From a virus, in IMG/VR virus record IMGVR_UViG_3300027621_000012, positions 1 to 44,535 of that record: 44,535 nt of DNA; one strand, given 5' to 3'. The translations under genes and the position numbers were made by a program. How positions within the stretch are numbered: the first letter of the stretch is position 1; every line of letters starts with the position of its first letter. This document shows, in pieces, positions 30,433 through 44,535 of the stretch. A model generated the notes under the pieces. The model searched no databases, was not told the DNA's origin, and was given only the letters and a program-made list of their open reading frames with translations.

Positions 30433-32874
30433 TCATGAGAAGCAGTATGGGTTTTGCCCGATCTCCCCAGGGCACAGGGTCCCCACCATGGGTGGTGCTG
30501 GCAGCTTGAGCCCTGTCCTGGACTCGACCTCAGCCCTTGTCACAGCAAGCCAATCGACGGAGTAAAAGCCCCGCAGCGTGTCGTGCAGCAATCCGTGAAG
30601 TGTCCCAGCGTCGGCTGGTGCGGCCCCAAAACAGTCGTGATTGGTCAGAAGCGGAAGGCCAATGCTTGCGGCCCCGTAGGTGACCTGCATTAGGAAGGCA
30701 GCGTCAATCCCATGCACGAAGTTGGCCCCGATCCCCTTATTGGCCATGGTTGCGCTCAGTGGAGCATCAAGCGGCTGGTCGGCGATGTTCAGGTGGATCT
30801 TGGTTCCGAACAACATGCTCGTCACCCTTGAGACCTTCGGTTCCCGATCGGCCAGGCGCATGGGGAACCCCATCGAGGTAGTCCATTCGAGGGGTTGGCC
30901 GCTGCCCAGCACGATCTGACAGACCTTCCGCAGCCAGGCCTTCACCTCAATGCACGGCTGGACCTCGGCCTTGAGCTCGCGCCAGACGTGGCTGGCCAGG
31001 TATCTGCTGGGTACGGCAACCCGGTAAGCGAACTCTTCGATCGGCACAAAACCCAGGTGGGCGTCCAGTGCATCGACCAGCGAATCGGTCAGCGATTGGT
31101 AGGAGCCCCCATAGGGCGTGGCCAGGATCGGTCCTTTGACCAGGCCCCGGCTAATCCCCATCTCCAGCCACAGCTCCGCCAGGCCCCGCTTCTTGGCCGC
31201 TTCGGTGTCATCCCCTGGGGTTTGCAGGTCAGACATCAGGGCCTTGATGACGGCTTCTGCCACCACCGTGTAAAGGTCCCTCGGGTTCTGGCCCCATAGG
31301 TTGCACAGCCGGCCGACGTGGCGATCCCGGATCAGTGCCGACAGGATTCCGCAGCCGCTGGTGGTCTGGTCCAGCCGCACCGGCACACCTGATCCCTTGC
31401 CGTGCAGGTGGACGTCCCTGATCGAGCGGGCCATCTGCAGGAACTGCCAGGGGTCCTTGGCTGATCGCCACAGTTCCCGCTGCCCCAGGGGGTCTTCAGC
31501 AGCAGCCACCATCCGGGCCAGGTTCTGCTTGCCCCAGCTCAACCGCTCGGCCCAGGTGTTGCGGCTCAGGCCGTAGTGACCAGCGGCAGCCTTGAGCATC
31601 CACTGAAAGGCCTCGTCATCGACGGGCTTCTCCTCCTCGAAGCGCAGCAGGGCCTTCTCGGTATCGGGTCCCTGGTGGGTGACGTATTTATTGCCGGTGT
31701 AGGCCCTGCCCCTGTGGTCCAGGTGGTAGCCCTGCCAGATCGTTCGCCCGGCCAAGCCTTCGGCCAGCTGCAGGGTTCGCTCGATCCTGATGCGGTTGTG
31801 CCGATTCTTCTCCCGGTCCCTGTGTGCCATCTGGGCGATCCGGTTCCGGGCCCGCAGCTCGTCGATGGATGGATCGCTGCCAAGCCTGGCCGGCGGCTCC
31901 TGGGGAACCCTGGCGCAGGGAAACAGGCCGTCGATCCCGTTCTCCCAGGACGCTCGCTGGAGCTCCACCATTTCGGCGTCGACATGCAGGGTGCTGCTCT
32001 GCAGGTGGTTGACCGCGGCATAGACCCGGCTCAGGTCTGCCTGGCGCAGGTGCTCGATCGCGGTGGTGTGTTTCTCCTCGATGTCCTGGACCGGCACCCG
32101 CACCAGGCAGTCCTCGTTCTCCAGGTGGCCGCCGCCAAACAGATCGACCCAGGGCCTGGGCGGGCAAACCATCGCCGTCTGGGGCACCTGATAGCTACTG
32201 AGCGGACAGGCGCGAATGAACTCCTCAGCCTCGGCGCTGGGATGGACAAAGCGGGGAGTGGTCCGCCCGACCCGGTGCTTTCTGACGATTACCAGGTTGG
32301 TTGCCGTGCCGATGTGATCCAGCAGCAGCATCCCCACGGCCAGCCGGGCCTGGTCCCCCCACTTCATGACAGGAACCCCTAGCCGCTTCATCGTCTGCTC
32401 GCTGGCGATCCGCTGCCGGGCTGTGCCTTCCCTAAATAGGTGGCGCAACACGATCGGGGCCTGCTGCTGGGCCCGGATCAGCCGGTCCTCCTTCTCGATC
32501 TGGGCGCCGAGGTTCTGGCAGAAGGTGGCGTGGCGCTGCTTGCGGCTGAGCTGATCGAGGCAGGCCACCAGGGCCACCGTTGCGATGTGCTCGGCCCCCT
32601 TGAAGCGGTTGAAGAAAGGGAAGGCCTTGGCATGGGGAACGGCCCGGCCTGGGTTTGCGGTGAAGGCCTCCAGCGATGCGGCCAGGCTCTGACTCAAGGC
32701 CCCGGCATGGAGCTGGAACAGCTGCTGCCCATGGCTCAAGGCCGACTCATGCCCGTGCTCCTTGAGCCGGCGCTGGGCGCTCAGGTGGGCCGATTCCGCC
32801 CGCTGCCGGGCCTTCTCCTGGCGTTGCAACTGCTCCGATTCGAGCGTGTGGACAACTTGCAAATCATTTTTCAT
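30433..32874 (-). CDS. 1: Single-subunit DNA-directed RNA polymerase, T7 gp1-like (813 aa)
   Basis: T7-type polymerase. Numbered from a TTG at 32922, the catalytic Asp518 is in VRLDQTTSG, Lys596 and Tyr604 are in LVKGPILATPYGGS, and Asp763 is in NHDCFGAAPADA preceded by NFVHGIDAAF; all core residues (T7 D537, K631, Y639, D812) are kept. I prefer the ATG at 32874 because AGGAG sits 9 bases upstream; this shortens it by 16 residues. Length is slightly under T7 (883 aa), mainly in the N-terminal domain. The enzyme ends with the aromatic ..NPYCFS. It should transcribe the middle and late genes from the ACG-N4-CGTAG sites. Confidence 0.95.
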   Translation of the reverse strand: MKNDLQVVHTLESEQLQRQEKARQRAESAHLSAQRRLKEHGHESALSHGQQLFQLHAGALSQSLAASLEAFTANPGRAVPHAKAFPFFNRFKGAEHIATVALVACLDQLSRKQRHATFCQNLGAQIEKEDRLIRAQQQAPIVLRHLFREGTARQRIASEQTMKRLGVPVMKWGDQARLAVGMLLLDHIGTATNLVIVRKHRVGRTTPRFVHPSAEAEEFIRACPLSSYQVPQTAMVCPPRPWVDLFGGGHLENEDCLVRVPVQDIEEKHTTAIEHLRQADLSRVYAAVNHLQSSTLHVDAEMVELQRASWENGIDGLFPCARVPQEPPARLGSDPSIDELRARNRIAQMAHRDREKNRHNRIRIERTLQLAEGLAGRTIWQGYHLDHRGRAYTGNKYVTHQGPDTEKALLRFEEEKPVDDEAFQWMLKAAAGHYGLSRNTWAERLSWGKQNLARMVAAAEDPLGQRELWRSAKDPWQFLQMARSIRDVHLHGKGSGVPVRLDQTTSGCGILSALIRDRHVGRLCNLWGQNPRDLYTVVAEAVIKALMSDLQTPGDDTEAAKKRGLAELWLEMGISRGLVKGPILATPYGGSYQSLTDSLVDALDAHLGFVPIEEFAYRVAVPSRYLASHVWRELKAEVQPCIEVKAWLRKVCQIVLGSGQPLEWTTSMGFPMRLADREPKVSRVTSMLFGTKIHLNIADQPLDAPLSATMANKGIGANFVHGIDAAFLMQVTYGAASIGLPLLTNHDCFGAAPADAGTLHGLLHDTLRGFYSVDWLAVTRAEVESRTGLKLPAPPMVGTLCPGEIGQNPYCFS

Positions 32875-32894
32875 TTGCAACTGCTCCTGCAACT
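32871..32894. repeat. 24-bp direct repeat, copy A (attP region)
   Basis: TCATTTGCAACTGCTCCTGC plus AACT, repeated without change at 33123-33146, on the other side of the tRNA-Leu core. A shorter form (TTGCAACTGCTCC) is at 32824-32836. CAACTTGCAA occurs at 32853-32862, 32890-32899 and 33105-33114. They may be integrase arm-type sites; copy A also carries the RNA polymerase Shine-Dalgarno and ATG on the minus strand. Confidence 0.75.
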
Positions 32895-32956
32895 TGCAAG
32901 GGTCCGCATGGGAGTCCTGCAACCCTGTATGGCGCCCTTAGTCTCGCCAATAACAA

Positions 32957-32981
32957 GGCCCTGGAGTTGATCTCCAAGGCC
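32957..32981 (-). terminator. Terminator-like hairpin between integrase and RNA polymerase
   Basis: Arms 32957-32966 and 32972-32981 form a 10-pair stem (GGCCTTGGAG / CTCCAGGGCC on the minus strand, one G-U) with a 5-base loop ATCAA. On the minus strand it is followed by TTGTTATT, a moderate U-tract. It is in the 3' region of int transcription, just beyond the tRNA-like core. Confidence 0.55.
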
Positions 32982-32998: not shown

Positions 32999-33039
32999 GA
33001 TTTTAAGTCCGCTGCGGCTACCAATTACGCCATGCCCCC
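32999..33039 (-). other. attP: Putative attP core: 5' half of a tRNA-Leu(UAA) gene
   Basis: On the minus strand 41 bases read as the 5' part of a leucine tRNA: acceptor GGGGGCA, D-arm GCGTAATTGGTAGCCGC with paired GCG/CGC, anticodon 5' arm GCGGA and loop CTTAAAA with anticodon TAA. After ..AAAATC the similarity stops (the 3' arm does not pair), so it is not a tRNA gene. It lies 120 bases downstream of the integrase stop. P-SSP7 is known to carry about 42 bp of a host tRNA-Leu next to int; this appears analogous. Confidence 0.8.
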
Positions 33040-33122
33040 GAACCGTTAGATGCCTTGCAATGACTGGCTTTTGGAGGATGATCTTGGGTTGAGACTCCTT
33101 CGACCAACTTGCAAAACTGCCC

Positions 33123-33146
33123 TCATTTGCAACTGCTCCTGCAACT
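33123..33146. repeat. 24-bp direct repeat, copy B (attP region)
   Basis: Second exact copy of the 32871-32894 repeat, 12 bases downstream of the integrase stop. On the minus strand it also contains AGGAG followed by ATG, opening only a 26-codon frame (33125 leftward) that ends inside the tRNA-like sequence. Confidence 0.75.
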
Positions 33147-33158
33147 AACAAATGCACT

Positions 33159-34211
33159 TTACGGACGGGTGGACACAGCGGACGTTGACCTTCCAGAGCG
33201 TTCGTTCAGCGCGTCGACCGCCTGCCCCAGAGAAGCGACGTCGACGTGCATGTAGCGCTCCACTGCGCTCAGTGTTTTCCAGCCGCCCCAGGCCATGATT
33301 TTTGGCAGGCTCACCCCCTCACGGGCCAGGCGGCTGGCGCAGGTGTGGCGGCAGCTGTGCAGCACCAGCCCAACGTCGTGGCCCAGCCCCAGCGCCGCCT
33401 TGGCCTTGAGGAACAGGCGTTCATATTGGAAGTATTCGTAAGGCCAGATCCGGTGGGTCCCTACAGCTGGCAGGTGGGGCGCCAGGCAGTCCACGGCCCG
33501 GCGGGTCAGCGGTGTGGTCCTTGGGGTCTTGCCCTTGGTCTTCCAGAAGGTGACGCAGTTGGCCGATAGGTCGATGTCCCGCAGCAGCAAGCGCTCGGCC
33601 TCGCCCCAGCGGCAGCCGGTCTCCACCAGGAAGACGAACAGGTTGGCCGCGGCGGGTTGGCAGATTGCCTCGAAGTAGGCGCAGAACGCTGCAACCTCCC
33701 CATCGGAGAGCACCCGCTCGCGGCGGTTTTCGATCTTGAGCTGTTTAGGCAGGGGCGGCAGCTGGTCGATCAGGCCCCGCTCCATCGCGTCCTGGCGCAT
33801 GGCCTTGAGCGCTGAGACCTTGTGATTGACCGTTGTCGGGCTGTTGCCCTGGGCTAGCCAGTGCTGGCGGAAGCGATCAACGTCCAGGGGGCCCACCGCC
33901 TCAACCTGGTACTTGGCCCCAAGGAAGTCGACCCAGGTCAGTGAGTAGATCCCGGCCGTGCGTTCGTAGGGGGTGCCGGCCCATCTGACCTTCATCGACA
34001 GGTCACGGGCCTGGGCGATGGTGAACCCTGCCGGCTTGGCCGCGGCCCGCTGCGCTGCTGGCGTTGCCTTCTCGATGGCAAGGGCCAGCCGGGTCTCTGC
34101 TTCTGCCTTGGTTGGCGCCTTGAGCTGCCGGCGTTTGCCGTCAATGGTTACATCAGCGATCCATCCCCCGGCCGGATTGCGGCGGAGGTGTGCCCTGGTT
34201 TCGGTTGTCAT
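33159..34211 (-). CDS. int: Tyrosine-recombinase integrase (350 aa)
   Basis: Catalytic set present: Arg201 (ETGCRWGEAERL), Lys around 224-226 (WKTKGKT), His285-x-x-Arg288 (LHSCRHTCASRL), Trp311 (GGWKTLSAVERY) and Tyr320. An N-terminal arm-binding region (about 1-60) and a SAM-like core-binding domain (about 60-160: VNHKVSALKAMRQDAMERGL) precede it, so the enzyme is complete. It should integrate phage DNA at a tRNA-Leu gene through the adjacent attP. The ATG follows a YCCACGA-type motif by one base and no Shine-Dalgarno is seen. It ends near the repeats flanking attP. Confidence 0.95.
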   Translation of the reverse strand: MTTETRAHLRRNPAGGWIADVTIDGKRRQLKAPTKAEAETRLALAIEKATPAAQRAAAKPAGFTIAQARDLSMKVRWAGTPYERTAGIYSLTWVDFLGAKYQVEAVGPLDVDRFRQHWLAQGNSPTTVNHKVSALKAMRQDAMERGLIDQLPPLPKQLKIENRRERVLSDGEVAAFCAYFEAICQPAAANLFVFLVETGCRWGEAERLLLRDIDLSANCVTFWKTKGKTPRTTPLTRRAVDCLAPHLPAVGTHRIWPYEYFQYERLFLKAKAALGLGHDVGLVLHSCRHTCASRLAREGVSLPKIMAWGGWKTLSAVERYMHVDVASLGQAVDALNERSGRSTSAVSTRP

Positions 34212-34237: not shown

Positions 34238-34594
34238 TTAAGCCAGGGTCTCGAGCGTGCGGATCAGGCCCTTGCCTTTACGGGTGAGGCGAACCCGATA
34301 GCGGCGGCCTTCTGCTGGGTCGATGAACTTCTCCACCAGGCCGAGGTTGTTCTTGCGGTGGTTGGAGTTTTCGGTCAGTGAGTCAATCGAGCGGGAGATC
34401 GAGGCGTTGGAGAAGTTGAGCTCCAGCTCAAGCTCCCGATAGGTGCAGGACCCCCGTTCGGCGATCACCAGCAAGAGCTGGACGTGATGAAACGCAAGCG
34501 CCCCCGGATCAAGAGCGCCAAAGACAGCAAGAGCGCGGGATAGCAGAGGTAAATCCATGGCGAGCACCTGGTCGCGGTTCTGGGAGTCTGGCAC
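34238..34594 (-). CDS. MarR-like winged-helix regulator (118 aa, or 106 aa from 34558)
   Basis: Pattern FHHVQLLLVIAERGSCTYREL..ELNFSNASISRSIDSLTENS....GLVEKF.DPAEGRRYRVRLTRKGKGLI is a MarR-type winged helix: recognition helix around NASISRSIDSL and wing around EGRRYRVRLT. The start is a GTG at 34594 or an ATG at 34558 (MDLPLLSRALAVFGALDPGA). It sits 26 bases upstream of int in the same direction and could control lysogeny genes. Ligand and operator are unknown. Confidence 0.8.
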   Translation of the reverse strand: MPDSQNRDQVLAMDLPLLSRALAVFGALDPGALAFHHVQLLLVIAERGSCTYRELELELNFSNASISRSIDSLTENSNHRKNNLGLVEKFIDPAEGRRYRVRLTRKGKGLIRTLETLA

Positions 34595-36341: not shown

Positions 36342-36941
36342 TCAGCAGGAGCGGAAGATATGAACCCCGCCTGAGGCGCAGTCCTCCTCCCGGTAGCCGT
36401 CGTGGGTGAGATCGCGCCAGGCGCTTTCCCAGTCGATGCAGGTCAGGGGCCAGGCCGGCTGGCTGGGCACGGCGTCCAGCTCCTCGGCCAGCTCGTAGGC
36501 GTAGTCCTGGCCGCTGCTGTACTGGCCGCAATAGGTCTCGCGGAAGGCCTCGTCCTCGATGGTCTCGCCCTGGTCCTCGCAGGCCAGGCGGTAGGCCTCG
36601 CGCTCGTCCTCGTCGATGTAGGCGCTGATCCCGTCAGCCCAGGCGATTAGATCGGCAAGGGCTGGCCATTCGGTCCGGCTGAGATAGCTGGGCAGGCCGG
36701 CGGAATCGTGGATGGCCCACTCCTCAGCGCTGAAGCGCAGGGGGCTGGTCTGGATGACGTGATCCATCCCGGCCTGGATGTCCTCGGGCTCTTTGCAGCG
36801 CTCTAGGTCAATCCAGAAGCCGTGGAGGATCCCGTCGTTGTAGGCGGCCAGGCAGGCGACATAGATTCCAACTTCTGGCAGGCCCAGGGCGATGCAGTCC
36901 GGGGCGGTTGGTGCTGGTGCTGGTGCGGTGGTTGTGGTCAT
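36342..36941 (-). CDS. ardA: ArdA-like antirestriction protein (199 aa)
   Basis: Clear ArdA pattern: P.VGIYVACLAAYNDGILHGFWIDLE near residues 22-48, then SPLRFSAEEWAIHDSAGL and the acidic ..DEDEREAYRLACEDQGE..  ArdA proteins mimic B-form DNA and block type I restriction-modification enzymes; the protein is strongly acidic as expected. It is an early gene near the entering right end of the leftward block, where T7 has its unrelated mimic gp0.3 (Ocr). Its ATG is preceded by the early-type motif within 4 bases. An Ala/Pro/Thr N-terminal stretch (1-17) is extra. Confidence 0.93.
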   Translation of the reverse strand: MTTTTAPAPAPTAPDCIALGLPEVGIYVACLAAYNDGILHGFWIDLERCKEPEDIQAGMDHVIQTSPLRFSAEEWAIHDSAGLPSYLSRTEWPALADLIAWADGISAYIDEDEREAYRLACEDQGETIEDEAFRETYCGQYSSGQDYAYELAEELDAVPSQPAWPLTCIDWESAWRDLTHDGYREEDCASGGVHIFRSC

Positions 36942-41912: not shown

Positions 41913-42218
41913 TCACGCAAACACCCGATACGGCGAAGCTGGGCTGACCACAAACCCATCCCACCCATCAGGCAGCTCACCTGCAAAGTTCACATGGAAC
42001 CCAGCCATGTCAACGATCTCACCAACCACGTCGATCGCACGGTCATGCGTGTAGGCAGCCAGGGTGCCAGTCCAGGCTTCGTTTACTGGAGGGGATGGGT
42101 CGTCTGCGGTGAAGGTGCCGTCATCGTTGCGAGCGCGGACAGGCTCGGAATAGAACCCAGCCTCAGCAGCAGCCGCAAGCCAGGCGGATTCATCGGGAAA
42201 TCGTAGGAACTGCGTCAT
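41913..42218 (-). CDS. Small protein coupled to the adhesin (101 aa)
   Basis: MTQFLRFPDESAWLAAAAEA...DDGTFTADDPSPPVNEAWTGTL...YTHDRAIDVVGEIVD: soluble, acidic, ending SPYRVFA. The ATG overlaps the adhesin stop (ATGA), so the two are co-translated. Such small partners after fibre genes are often chaperones or tip-attached proteins; which applies here is unknown. It is convergent with the endolysin, 2 bases apart, with no terminator between. Confidence 0.65.
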   Translation of the reverse strand: MTQFLRFPDESAWLAAAAEAGFYSEPVRARNDDGTFTADDPSPPVNEAWTGTLAAYTHDRAIDVVGEIVDMAGFHVNFAGELPDGWDGFVVSPASPYRVFA

Positions 42219-44535
42219 GGTGCTGTGATGGAAACTAGGGTGGGGTTGGCTAAGCGGACGGGCCAGTAGGTGAGGCGTTGGATAGTGCCGTTCAGATTTC
42301 GCACTCCATCTTGGCGATCTCCAATTCTTGCTTGAGTTACGGTGGGAATATTACAAGCCGTGTCCAAAGTTTCAGCACTTCCGTTAAAAGATGCGTTTGA
42401 ATTATTTAACTGATAGCCGAGAACTTCCTTGATACTCGCGCCAACCGTAAAACCTGAAGGCGTCCAAAGCGCTTGCGCTGTTGTTGCAGTTATTTGAGCA
42501 GAAGGGTTTGAAGCACCTGTTTGATAGATTTCAAGCGCGTTGGTGTTGCTGCCATCACTAAAACTAAAGACTCGACCTTGCTGTGTGTTGGTTGAAGCAG
42601 TTCGCAGAAATTGACCAAACACCGTCCCCTCCGCCTGGTTGTAGAACGAGCTTTCAAACACGCTCACCGCTGCGGTCGTGGTTGGGATGTAGGCCGTTGC
42701 CGTTGAGCCAGTTTCTAGTTGGGCGCCCCAGATCAATAGGCCAGAGGTGCCATTGCCTGTCGTAGGTAATCTACTGTAAATTCTAGATTGAATACTTGTC
42801 TCTGTGCCAGTAGTAACCGTAAGACTGCATCTGTACCAACCATTTGCAAATTCAGTAATAGTACTAGACGCATTGGTAAAAGTTCCTTGAGCAGATGCTG
42901 CAACTGTAATAGTTCCAGATACAGCTGAAAAACTTGAAGTTGCACTATTACTAGTTGTAGCAGTATCAGTAAAAATTATTTGCAAGGTGCCCGTTCCGCT
43001 TTCTCCTGTTTTTGCAAATACCGTATGAGTATAAGTTGTTGCCGATGCTGCTTTAACAATAGTTTGCGTAATACGAGCGGATGAAGAAGTTATGCCATTG
43101 TTAACAATTAATTTATCTGCTGTTGTTGTACCATCTGGTGCTGTAGCGGCATTTGTAGTAACCGATGAATTTGTTCTTGCCCATGTAATTGAATCACTAA
43201 AATCTTCGCTTTGCAATATCAAATTCGTCCTCGTCACCCCAAAGTTCGACCCGGTAATGCTCGCCACATCAGCAGCGCGGGTGGCGGTTGCGGTCGTGGT
43301 GGGGATGTAGCTGGTGGGGAAGGCTCCGGCTTCTAGTTGGGCGCCCCAGAAGAATAAGCCAGACGTGCCGTTACCTGTGTAAGAAGTTGCTCCTACATAC
43401 AATTGAGTTTGCACAGCGCTCGATCCTGGTACGGCAACAGTTGTAGCAGTAATCCTACAGCGATACCAACTATTTAAAAAAGGTTCAATAGACGCAGTAA
43501 CCGAACTGCCAGCCGTTGCTATAACTGTTCCAGCAGACAAATCAAAAACAGCATTTCTTTGGCCATTTACCCAAAATGTAGATGATCCAAATGCAAGATT
43601 TACCTGGTTACGAGTGTTTGCTTTTAAGAAAATAGAAAAAGTGTATGTAGTGTTTCCAACCCATGTAATTGAAGCTGTGTTTACCGAATGGCCACCAGTT
43701 GATGTATCTTCGATCAGGGTATCTGCTGTAACCAATCCATCTGGAGCTGTTGTTGTATTGTTTAAAATTGAAGCGCCAGTGATATTTGCTAAAGCCTCAG
43801 ATGTAATAATTAAGTTCGTCCTAGCCTCCTCCACCAGCAGGCCAAGGCTTTCACCCGTGGTCGGGTTGTGGTCGAAGCGTGGGGCGGAGTTGATCGTGGA
43901 CGTGGCTGGGATGTATTCGCCAACGGTGGAGGTTTCCTCGAATTGGGCACCCCAGATATACAAACCTTTAATGCCATCATTTGCTACAACAGTTTGTATA
44001 ACACGAAGGCTGCGCGTAGTACCAGTTATAGACGCAACCGTGGCTACGCATCTATACCAACCATCTCCAACTGCTTCAATACTGGCAGTCATTCCAGCGG
44101 TTGGTGTTCCTGAAACGGTTCCGGTAATTAAGTCAAAATCTGCAGATCTTCCTGTAACACCATCAGAAATAAATAAACCGAATACACTTGTTTCACCTTG
44201 TTTTGCAAAACAAGACAAGGTTGCAGGAGACCCTGTTACTGCAGCAGTTACTGAAACGCTTGCTCTGCCACTAGACGCGGCATTATTTGTAATTAGTTTA
44301 TCCGCCGTCAATGTTCCATTAGGAGCTGTAATTGCATTTGTAGTAACAGTTGAATTAGTTTTTGTCCACGCCGCATTATCAAATTGCTCGCTATAAGTCA
44401 GCAGGTTTGTCACCGCCGTCTTAATCAACCCATCACTGCCGACGTACATGCCGGTGCTGGCGCGGGTGAAGGTGATTAGACTCTTGCCGCTGGTCGAGTC
44501 GATCAAGGACTTGCTGGAAGCAAAGTTGAGATCAA
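42215..44535 (-). CDS. Modular tail adhesin, central and C-terminal part (enters from the right edge)
   Basis: The frame is open to the right edge; the first internal Met is at 44506, but the homologous left copy shows coding continuing upstream to an ATG at 837. Three tandem modules share the pattern R/TNL...SE..........TAPDG..TADKL......GWYRC......SG...WGAQ.E....YIPTT (about residues 30-205, 235-410 and 425-612 from 44506), then a C-terminal LamG/ConA-like domain (TVFGQFLRTA...RNLNGTIQRLTYWP). This suggests stacked carbohydrate-binding domains used for host recognition. The region is clearly AT-richer than the rest of the genome. Confidence 0.8.
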   Translation of the reverse strand, partial: DLNFASSKSLIDSTSGKSLITFTRASTGMYVGSDGLIKTAVTNLLTYSEQFDNAAWTKTNSTVTTNAITAPNGTLTADKLITNNAASSGRASVSVTAAVTGSPATLSCFAKQGETSVFGLFISDGVTGRSADFDLITGTVSGTPTAGMTASIEAVGDGWYRCVATVASITGTTRSLRVIQTVVANDGIKGLYIWGAQFEETSTVGEYIPATSTINSAPRFDHNPTTGESLGLLVEEARTNLIITSEALANITGASILNNTTTAPDGLVTADTLIEDTSTGGHSVNTASITWVGNTTYTFSIFLKANTRNQVNLAFGSSTFWVNGQRNAVFDLSAGTVIATAGSSVTASIEPFLNSWYRCRITATTVAVPGSSAVQTQLYVGATSYTGNGTSGLFFWGAQLEAGAFPTSYIPTTTATATRAADVASITGSNFGVTRTNLILQSEDFSDSITWARTNSSVTTNAATAPDGTTTADKLIVNNGITSSSARITQTIVKAASATTYTHTVFAKTGESGTGTLQIIFTDTATTSNSATSSFSAVSGTITVAASAQGTFTNASSTITEFANGWYRCSLTVTTGTETSIQSRIYSRLPTTGNGTSGLLIWGAQLETGSTATAYIPTTTAAVSVFESSFYNQAEGTVFGQFLRTASTNTQQGRVFSFSDGSNTNALEIYQTGASNPSAQITATTAQALWTPSGFTVGASIKEVLGYQLNNSNASFNGSAETLDTACNIPTVTQARIGDRQDGVRNLNGTIQRLTYWPVRLANPTLVSITAP
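43772..44535. repeat. Right copy of the divergent terminal overlap
   Basis: Aligns with 1-746; 18 bases longer, in frame. The two flanks are near-identical, the middle (about 43975-44345) diverged. The last bases (..AAAGTTGAGATCAA) correspond to 733-746, after which only the left copy continues. Confidence 0.8.

Follow-up and report, generated by a model that had tools for sequence, protein, structure and literature searches.

Half of a tRNA gene lying directly after a phage integrase gene raises the question of whether it serves as the phage attachment site (attP) and, if so, which host chromosome the phage enters and with what kind of recombination machinery. We addressed this question for a 41-nt stretch on the minus strand (GGGGGCATGGCGTAATTGGTAGCCGCAGCGGACTTAAAATC, 32999-33039) of the window, the complete 44,535-bp virus record that was analyzed. 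Profile searches identified the window as the genome of a T7-like cyanophage, with a single-subunit RNA polymerase, a primase/helicase, a gp2.5-like SSB, RusA, an exonuclease, a head-tail adaptor, the major head protein, terminase, and endolysin. The order on the minus strand is a small winged-helix/MarR-like protein (34238-34594), the tyrosine integrase gene int (33159-34211), the tRNA half, and the gene of the T7-type RNA polymerase (30433-32874), whose likely start is the ATG at 32874, judged by a Shine-Dalgarno-like AGGAG (the longest frame extends to 32922). The int stop at 33159 leaves 119 nt to the tRNA half, and the arrangement matches that of P-SSP7, in accordance with a sequence-only reading of this DNA that had placed an attP candidate 120 bases past int. 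Among the proteins scanned, no lysogeny genes besides int and the MarR-like candidate regulator were identified. Positions 1-114 of the window are exactly repeated at 43772-43885, and the similarity is gradually lost beyond that point. This suggests a circularly closed contig whose overhang of about 650 bp diverges, and given this overhang the frame 42215-44506 may be chimeric. An ArdA-like antirestriction protein is encoded at 36342-36941.

ARAGORN and Rfam detected no complete tRNA or other RNA family at the site (the Rfam matches were at chance level), and only half a tRNA is present. The 41 bases are exactly nucleotides 1-41 of tRNA-Leu(UAA), as had been read from the letters, and comparison with host tRNA-Leu genes, the proposed check, returned exact matches in two freshwater Cyanobiaceae MAGs titled Cyanobium/Synechococcus. 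These were the only two loci matching the 41-mer in a genome collection of 84,980 species, and both are empty host sites; the 41-mer was not found in a second viral contig. Among 400 sampled Cyanobiaceae genomes, it was present in two. Whole-genome searches of both host MAGs showed that tRNA-Leu(UAA) is single-copy in each, and ARAGORN annotated it as an intact, continuous 84-nt gene, which bears out the expectation that the target gene is probably free of a group I intron. Counting the preceding C, the identity between core and host extends over 42 nt (to 33040), and its 3' limit lies at nucleotide 41. The variant bases T13 and C23 occurred together in only those two of the 95 Cyanobiaceae genomes that have a continuous gene by a loose pattern for the tRNA-Leu 5' half, a partial pattern whose count of 95 does not equal the number of intronless genes. 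As the exact match includes this T13/C23 variant, seen only in the two MAGs, the putative attP follows one particular host, and it points to the host lineage of this uncultured phage, a freshwater Cyanobium/Synechococcus with the T13/C23 tRNA-Leu variant. We take it to be a virus of freshwater picocyanobacteria. Elsewhere in one of the host MAGs (L017, G001:C26:8211-8233), a 23-nt copy of tRNA-Leu nucleotides 54-76 was observed, which may belong to another tRNA or represent the scar of an integration.

The best interpretation of the stretch 32999-33039 is that of a T7-like cyanophage attP, and this site in the 5' half of tRNA-Leu(UAA) is almost certainly where the phage can enter the host chromosome. 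Besides the identity to a rare host variant, the assignment is supported by the adjoining integrase with all of its catalytic residues and by a corresponding site in other phages. An integrase alignment led to 60 IMG/VR loci, overlapping six from the first scan and including several without a recognized core, and a tRNA-Leu 5' half that ends in the anticodon region was found after int in about 40 distinct IMG/VR relatives, in S-SRP02, and in P-SSP7. In three relatives of the window integrase (L032, L043, and L046), the 5' half found at the same place comes from a tRNA whose anticodon is CAT, to all appearances a target switch within the integrase lineage. Among the known phages, the anticodon is CAG in marine Synechococcus phages and S-SRP01, and UAA in P-SSP2/3/7. 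No convincing sigma-70 promoter was found upstream of the tRNA half in the window, whereas P-SSP7 and P-SSP2 have a TATAAT there. The identity to the host ends just beyond the anticodon loop (CTTAAAA, 33001-33007, minus strand, located by the ARAGORN anticodon position), which fits strand exchange within the loop; the loop would then be the 7-nt overlap region, and the anticodon stem (GCGGA / TCCGC in the host) would provide the half-sites. Joined on paper, the phage 5' half and the host 3' half give exactly the host tRNA.

The integrase comprises 350 residues. Its catalytic set R-K-H-R-H/W-Y is complete (R201, K226, H285, R288, W311, and Y320) and invariant in a 26-member alignment. The protein has core-binding and catalytic domains, and ahead of them AlphaFold2 (mean pLDDT 82.5, pTM 0.56) predicted an N-terminal domain of residues 5-48 with three strands (5-11, 17-23, 26-32) and a helix (35-48), at an N-terminal pLDDT of about 70-86. 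This beta-beta-beta-alpha pattern is that of the arm-binding domains of the lambda and Tn916 integrases. In Foldseek searches, full-length lambda Int (1z1b, 1z1g) aligned over about 341-353 columns with a TM-score of about 0.6. The best E-values, however, went to recombinase constructs lacking the N-terminal arm domain, and the reading of the integrase as three-domain and lambda-like, with a predicted N-terminal domain of the arm-binding type, therefore rests mainly on predicted topology. The relatives of the window integrase share about 56-63 residues ahead of the core-binding domain, with the motif WIADVTxxGxRR, a count that runs higher where the longest reading frame was used (the frame of L085 was unreadable). 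The marine integrases have 5-35 residues there by the longest frame and an H in place of W at the fifth catalytic position; judged from these sequences, the N-terminal domain of the arm-binding type is absent from the integrases of marine T7-like cyanophages.

The sequence-only reading had described arm-like repeats on both sides of the core. An exact 24-bp repeat (32871-32894 and 33123-33146) is present on the two sides of the core as described, and the 10-bp word CAACTTGCAA was confirmed at 32853, 32890, and 33105. The 24-bp repeat is nested in a 47-bp direct repeat of 83% identity (32853-32899 and 33105-33151). The second copy of the latter, with one exact 24-bp copy and CAACTTGCAA, forms the P-side arm-like repeat (33105-33151, minus strand), and the first copy, together with more GTTGCA/TTGCAA words, forms the P'-side repeats (32824-32923, minus strand), which overlap the RNA polymerase start codon. 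The left/right repeat reached p = 0.003, the minimum obtainable with 300 dinucleotide shuffles, and the left and right flanks have 41 7-mers in common, compared to a maximum of 13 against 93 other stretches of the genome segment tested.

We extended the comparison to the related phages, with flank-repeat and hairpin-survey analyses that were chosen after viewing the sequences and for which several thresholds and word sizes were tried; the flank test was run at three clustering thresholds, after an initial one had retained too few lineages. In lineages with the long integrase, more 6-8-mers are common to the two flanks of one phage than to flanks taken from different phages (p 0.0002-0.004, n = 11-20). 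Short-integrase phages gave a weak positive signal in this test as well (p about 0.01-0.06), and shared composition therefore contributes. When the left flank was compared to the own right flank and to other parts of the same genome, the similarity to the right flank was higher in the long-integrase phages (Wilcoxon p 0.002-0.004, n = 15); in the short-integrase phages the same test gave p 0.19-0.47 (n = 8, with lower power). The repeat words differ between lineages, although over the long-integrase lineages the two flanks of a phage have more words in common than expected by chance. Together, the comparison favors the view that the flanking repeats are integrase arm sites. Of the earlier description as arm-like, the existence of the repeats stands, but when the 15 lineages of the same-genome test were taken one by one, the left/right similarity reached significance in only 5-7 of them.

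Other proteins could in principle use these flanks. A TCCAC/GTGGA pattern recurs family-wide at fixed distances from the core and could belong to the integrase, to the MarR-like protein, or to both. It was conceivable that the repeats and these conserved palindromes are not arms but operators of the MarR-like protein, acting as a repressor of int and RNA polymerase or as an excision-direction factor. The winged-helix gene directly upstream of int, which is also found in the annotated relatives and, as gp0.7, in P-SSP7, speaks in favor of operators, as do the GTGGATGCGTCCAC-type palindromes present in most relatives at about -110 to -95 and +177 to +186 from the core. The window, however, has only single TCCAC words, one at the 3' end of int (33169-33173) and one just inside the RNA polymerase gene (32848-32852), both on the minus strand, and the sequence of its strongest repeats is different; moreover, two-sided repeats go along with the presence of the arm-type domain of the integrase. 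We consider the operator explanation unlikely, albeit worth keeping in mind.

The position of the P' repeats offers a second explanation that leaves the attP itself untouched. As the flank repeat includes a Shine-Dalgarno-like sequence along with the start codon of RNA polymerase, duplication of a translation start could account for part of it: the 24-bp repeat AGTTGCAGGAGCAGTTGCAAATGA holds AGGAG and the ATG at the likely RNA polymerase start, and the duplication could have been left behind by insertion or exchange of an int-attP module. Such modules seem to be exchanged independently, since phage S37-C6 (L012, MedDCM-OCT-S37-C6), whose RNA polymerase is the closest known (58%), has only a distantly related integrase (28%) and lacks a recognized tRNA-Leu core. 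Lineages with the same type of integrase nevertheless have different repeats at comparable positions, and in L004/L005 the core is flanked by a different 16-bp word in the form of an inverted repeat, which cannot be a duplicated start. The correspondence of left and right words within phages also argues against this origin, as do repeat words of the window that lie outside the duplicated stretch (32824-32836 and 32915-32923). We regard a duplicated initiation region as the whole explanation of the repeats as rather improbable, and we prefer their interpretation as arm sites.

A terminator-like hairpin, GGCCTTGGAG-ATCAA-CTCCAGGGCC followed by TTGTTATT (32957-32981, minus strand), comes after the core and ahead of the RNA polymerase gene. 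A similar element was found on the same strand, 68-103 nt from the core start, in six of eight distinct marine phages (L090-L100), compared to 0.2 expected from shuffles. Among 20 long-integrase lineages, only the window has a terminator-like hairpin; many of the others have long stems in that place that lack a T-tract. We infer that the hairpin would act as an insulator, preventing expression of the phage RNA polymerase from the promoter of the host tRNA once the phage is integrated; termination of the int transcript in the free phage is an equally good role for it. No relevant description of a terminator beside a cyanophage attP turned up in a literature search. The hairpin, the overlap of the P' repeats with the RNA polymerase start codon, and the lack of the arm-binding-type domain in P-SSP7 are points that the sequence-only reading did not contain.

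The search for integrated copies with junctions at tRNA-Leu, also suggested by that reading, detected neither a prophage nor a junction of the window phage in the 84,980-species genome collection or the viral contigs. An integrase search in 400 Cyanobiaceae genomes found six with close relatives, none with tRNA-Leu junctions (of G344, part of the 44.8-kb contig was read); in two of the six, a tRNA-Leu half follows int, with no complete tRNA in the fetched stretch. In two others, the Cyanobiaceae MAGs G203 and G049 (L018 and L021), the integrase relatives are located near tRNA-Thr(GGT) and are possibly genomic-island integrases of the same family. Two observations had been named as speaking against an attP, the absence of a host tRNA match and junctions at another place; both were looked for and neither was found. 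Although the missing prophage and the failure of marine relatives to give stable lysogens (PMC8776855) would suit a relic or captured host fragment without a present role in integration, or one with another use such as a tRNA-fragment RNA or decoy, this is very improbable, as the perfect identity to a rare host variant, the fixed position after an intact integrase in dozens of phages, the end of identity in the anticodon region, and the retargeting of other phages to other tRNA halves (CAT or CAG) are what selection for recombination predicts, and the half-core of the window alone folds in no unusual way.

Taken as a whole, we consider it highly probable that the tRNA half is an attP, which the adjoining integrase would recombine with the host tRNA-Leu(UAA) gene (attB). 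In both sites, the integrase would recognize the core formed by the anticodon stem-loop, and strand exchange would take place in the 7-nt anticodon loop. The repeated words on either side (the P and P' arms) would be contacted by the N-terminal domain, which would in this way determine the direction of the reaction. Because the attP carries the whole 5' half, integration would join the phage 5' half to the host 3' half next to int and so restore an intact tRNA-Leu of 84 nt there. The RNA polymerase side would keep the host promoter and a dead 5' half, and the hairpin would stop transcription there, ahead of the phage RNA polymerase gene. If the marine relatives are a guide, integration may be a rare and transient event that does not lead to stable lysogeny.

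The wider question is whether T7-like phages can be temperate; marine cyanophages integrate without forming stable lysogens. The window phage might represent a freshwater lineage with true lambda-style directional integration, combining a three-domain integrase, lineage-specific arms, a winged-helix direction or repressor protein, and, in this phage, a terminator insulating the RNA polymerase from the host tRNA promoter. We find this doubtful, but if it holds, regulated and stable lysogeny would be possible, unlike in marine phages, whose arm-less integrases give transient integration only. The two types of integrase, with and without the arm domain, share the gene position and mostly the kind of tRNA target, which makes it directly testable what arm sites contribute to integration as opposed to lysogeny.

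The attP as such is of a known kind, since T7-like cyanophage attP sites matching the first half of tRNA-Leu have been published, integration at this half has been experimentally shown for P-SSP7 and S-TIP37, and the integration of S-TIP37 was found to require int and attP; stable lysogens of marine T7-like cyanophages were not found (PMC8776855). P-SSP7 has the same tRNA gene and half just after int, the same order of MarR-like gene, int, attP, and RNA polymerase gene, and a terminator-like hairpin after the core. It differs in its integrase, which is missing the approximately 60 residues of the N-terminal arm-type domain and carries H for W at the fifth catalytic position, and there is at most a weak 10-bp repeat across its core (p 0.013 in the shuffle test, p 0.09 in the same-genome test). 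S-TIP37 and related marine Synechococcus T7-like phages also carry a tRNA-Leu 5' half after int and a hairpin after the core, but by sequence their target half has the anticodon CAG, and their short integrase is without the arm-type domain. The closest isolate integrase (48%), of the same three-domain type, is that of the tropical freshwater Synechococcus phage S-SRP02 (MW822601), whose paper mentions no attP (PMC8790148). S-SRP02 likewise has a tRNA-Leu(UAA) half between int and RNA polymerase, but three extra genes separate its int from the core, and the core bases and flanking words differ. With the heterobivalent systems of the lambda type, the window shares the predicted three-domain fold of the integrase and an attP core with repeats on both sides; the integrase is only 15-18% identical to lambda Int, and the background is that of a T7-like phage. 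What goes beyond the known marine sites is the longer, lambda-like integrase and the flanking repeats that the studied marine phages lack.
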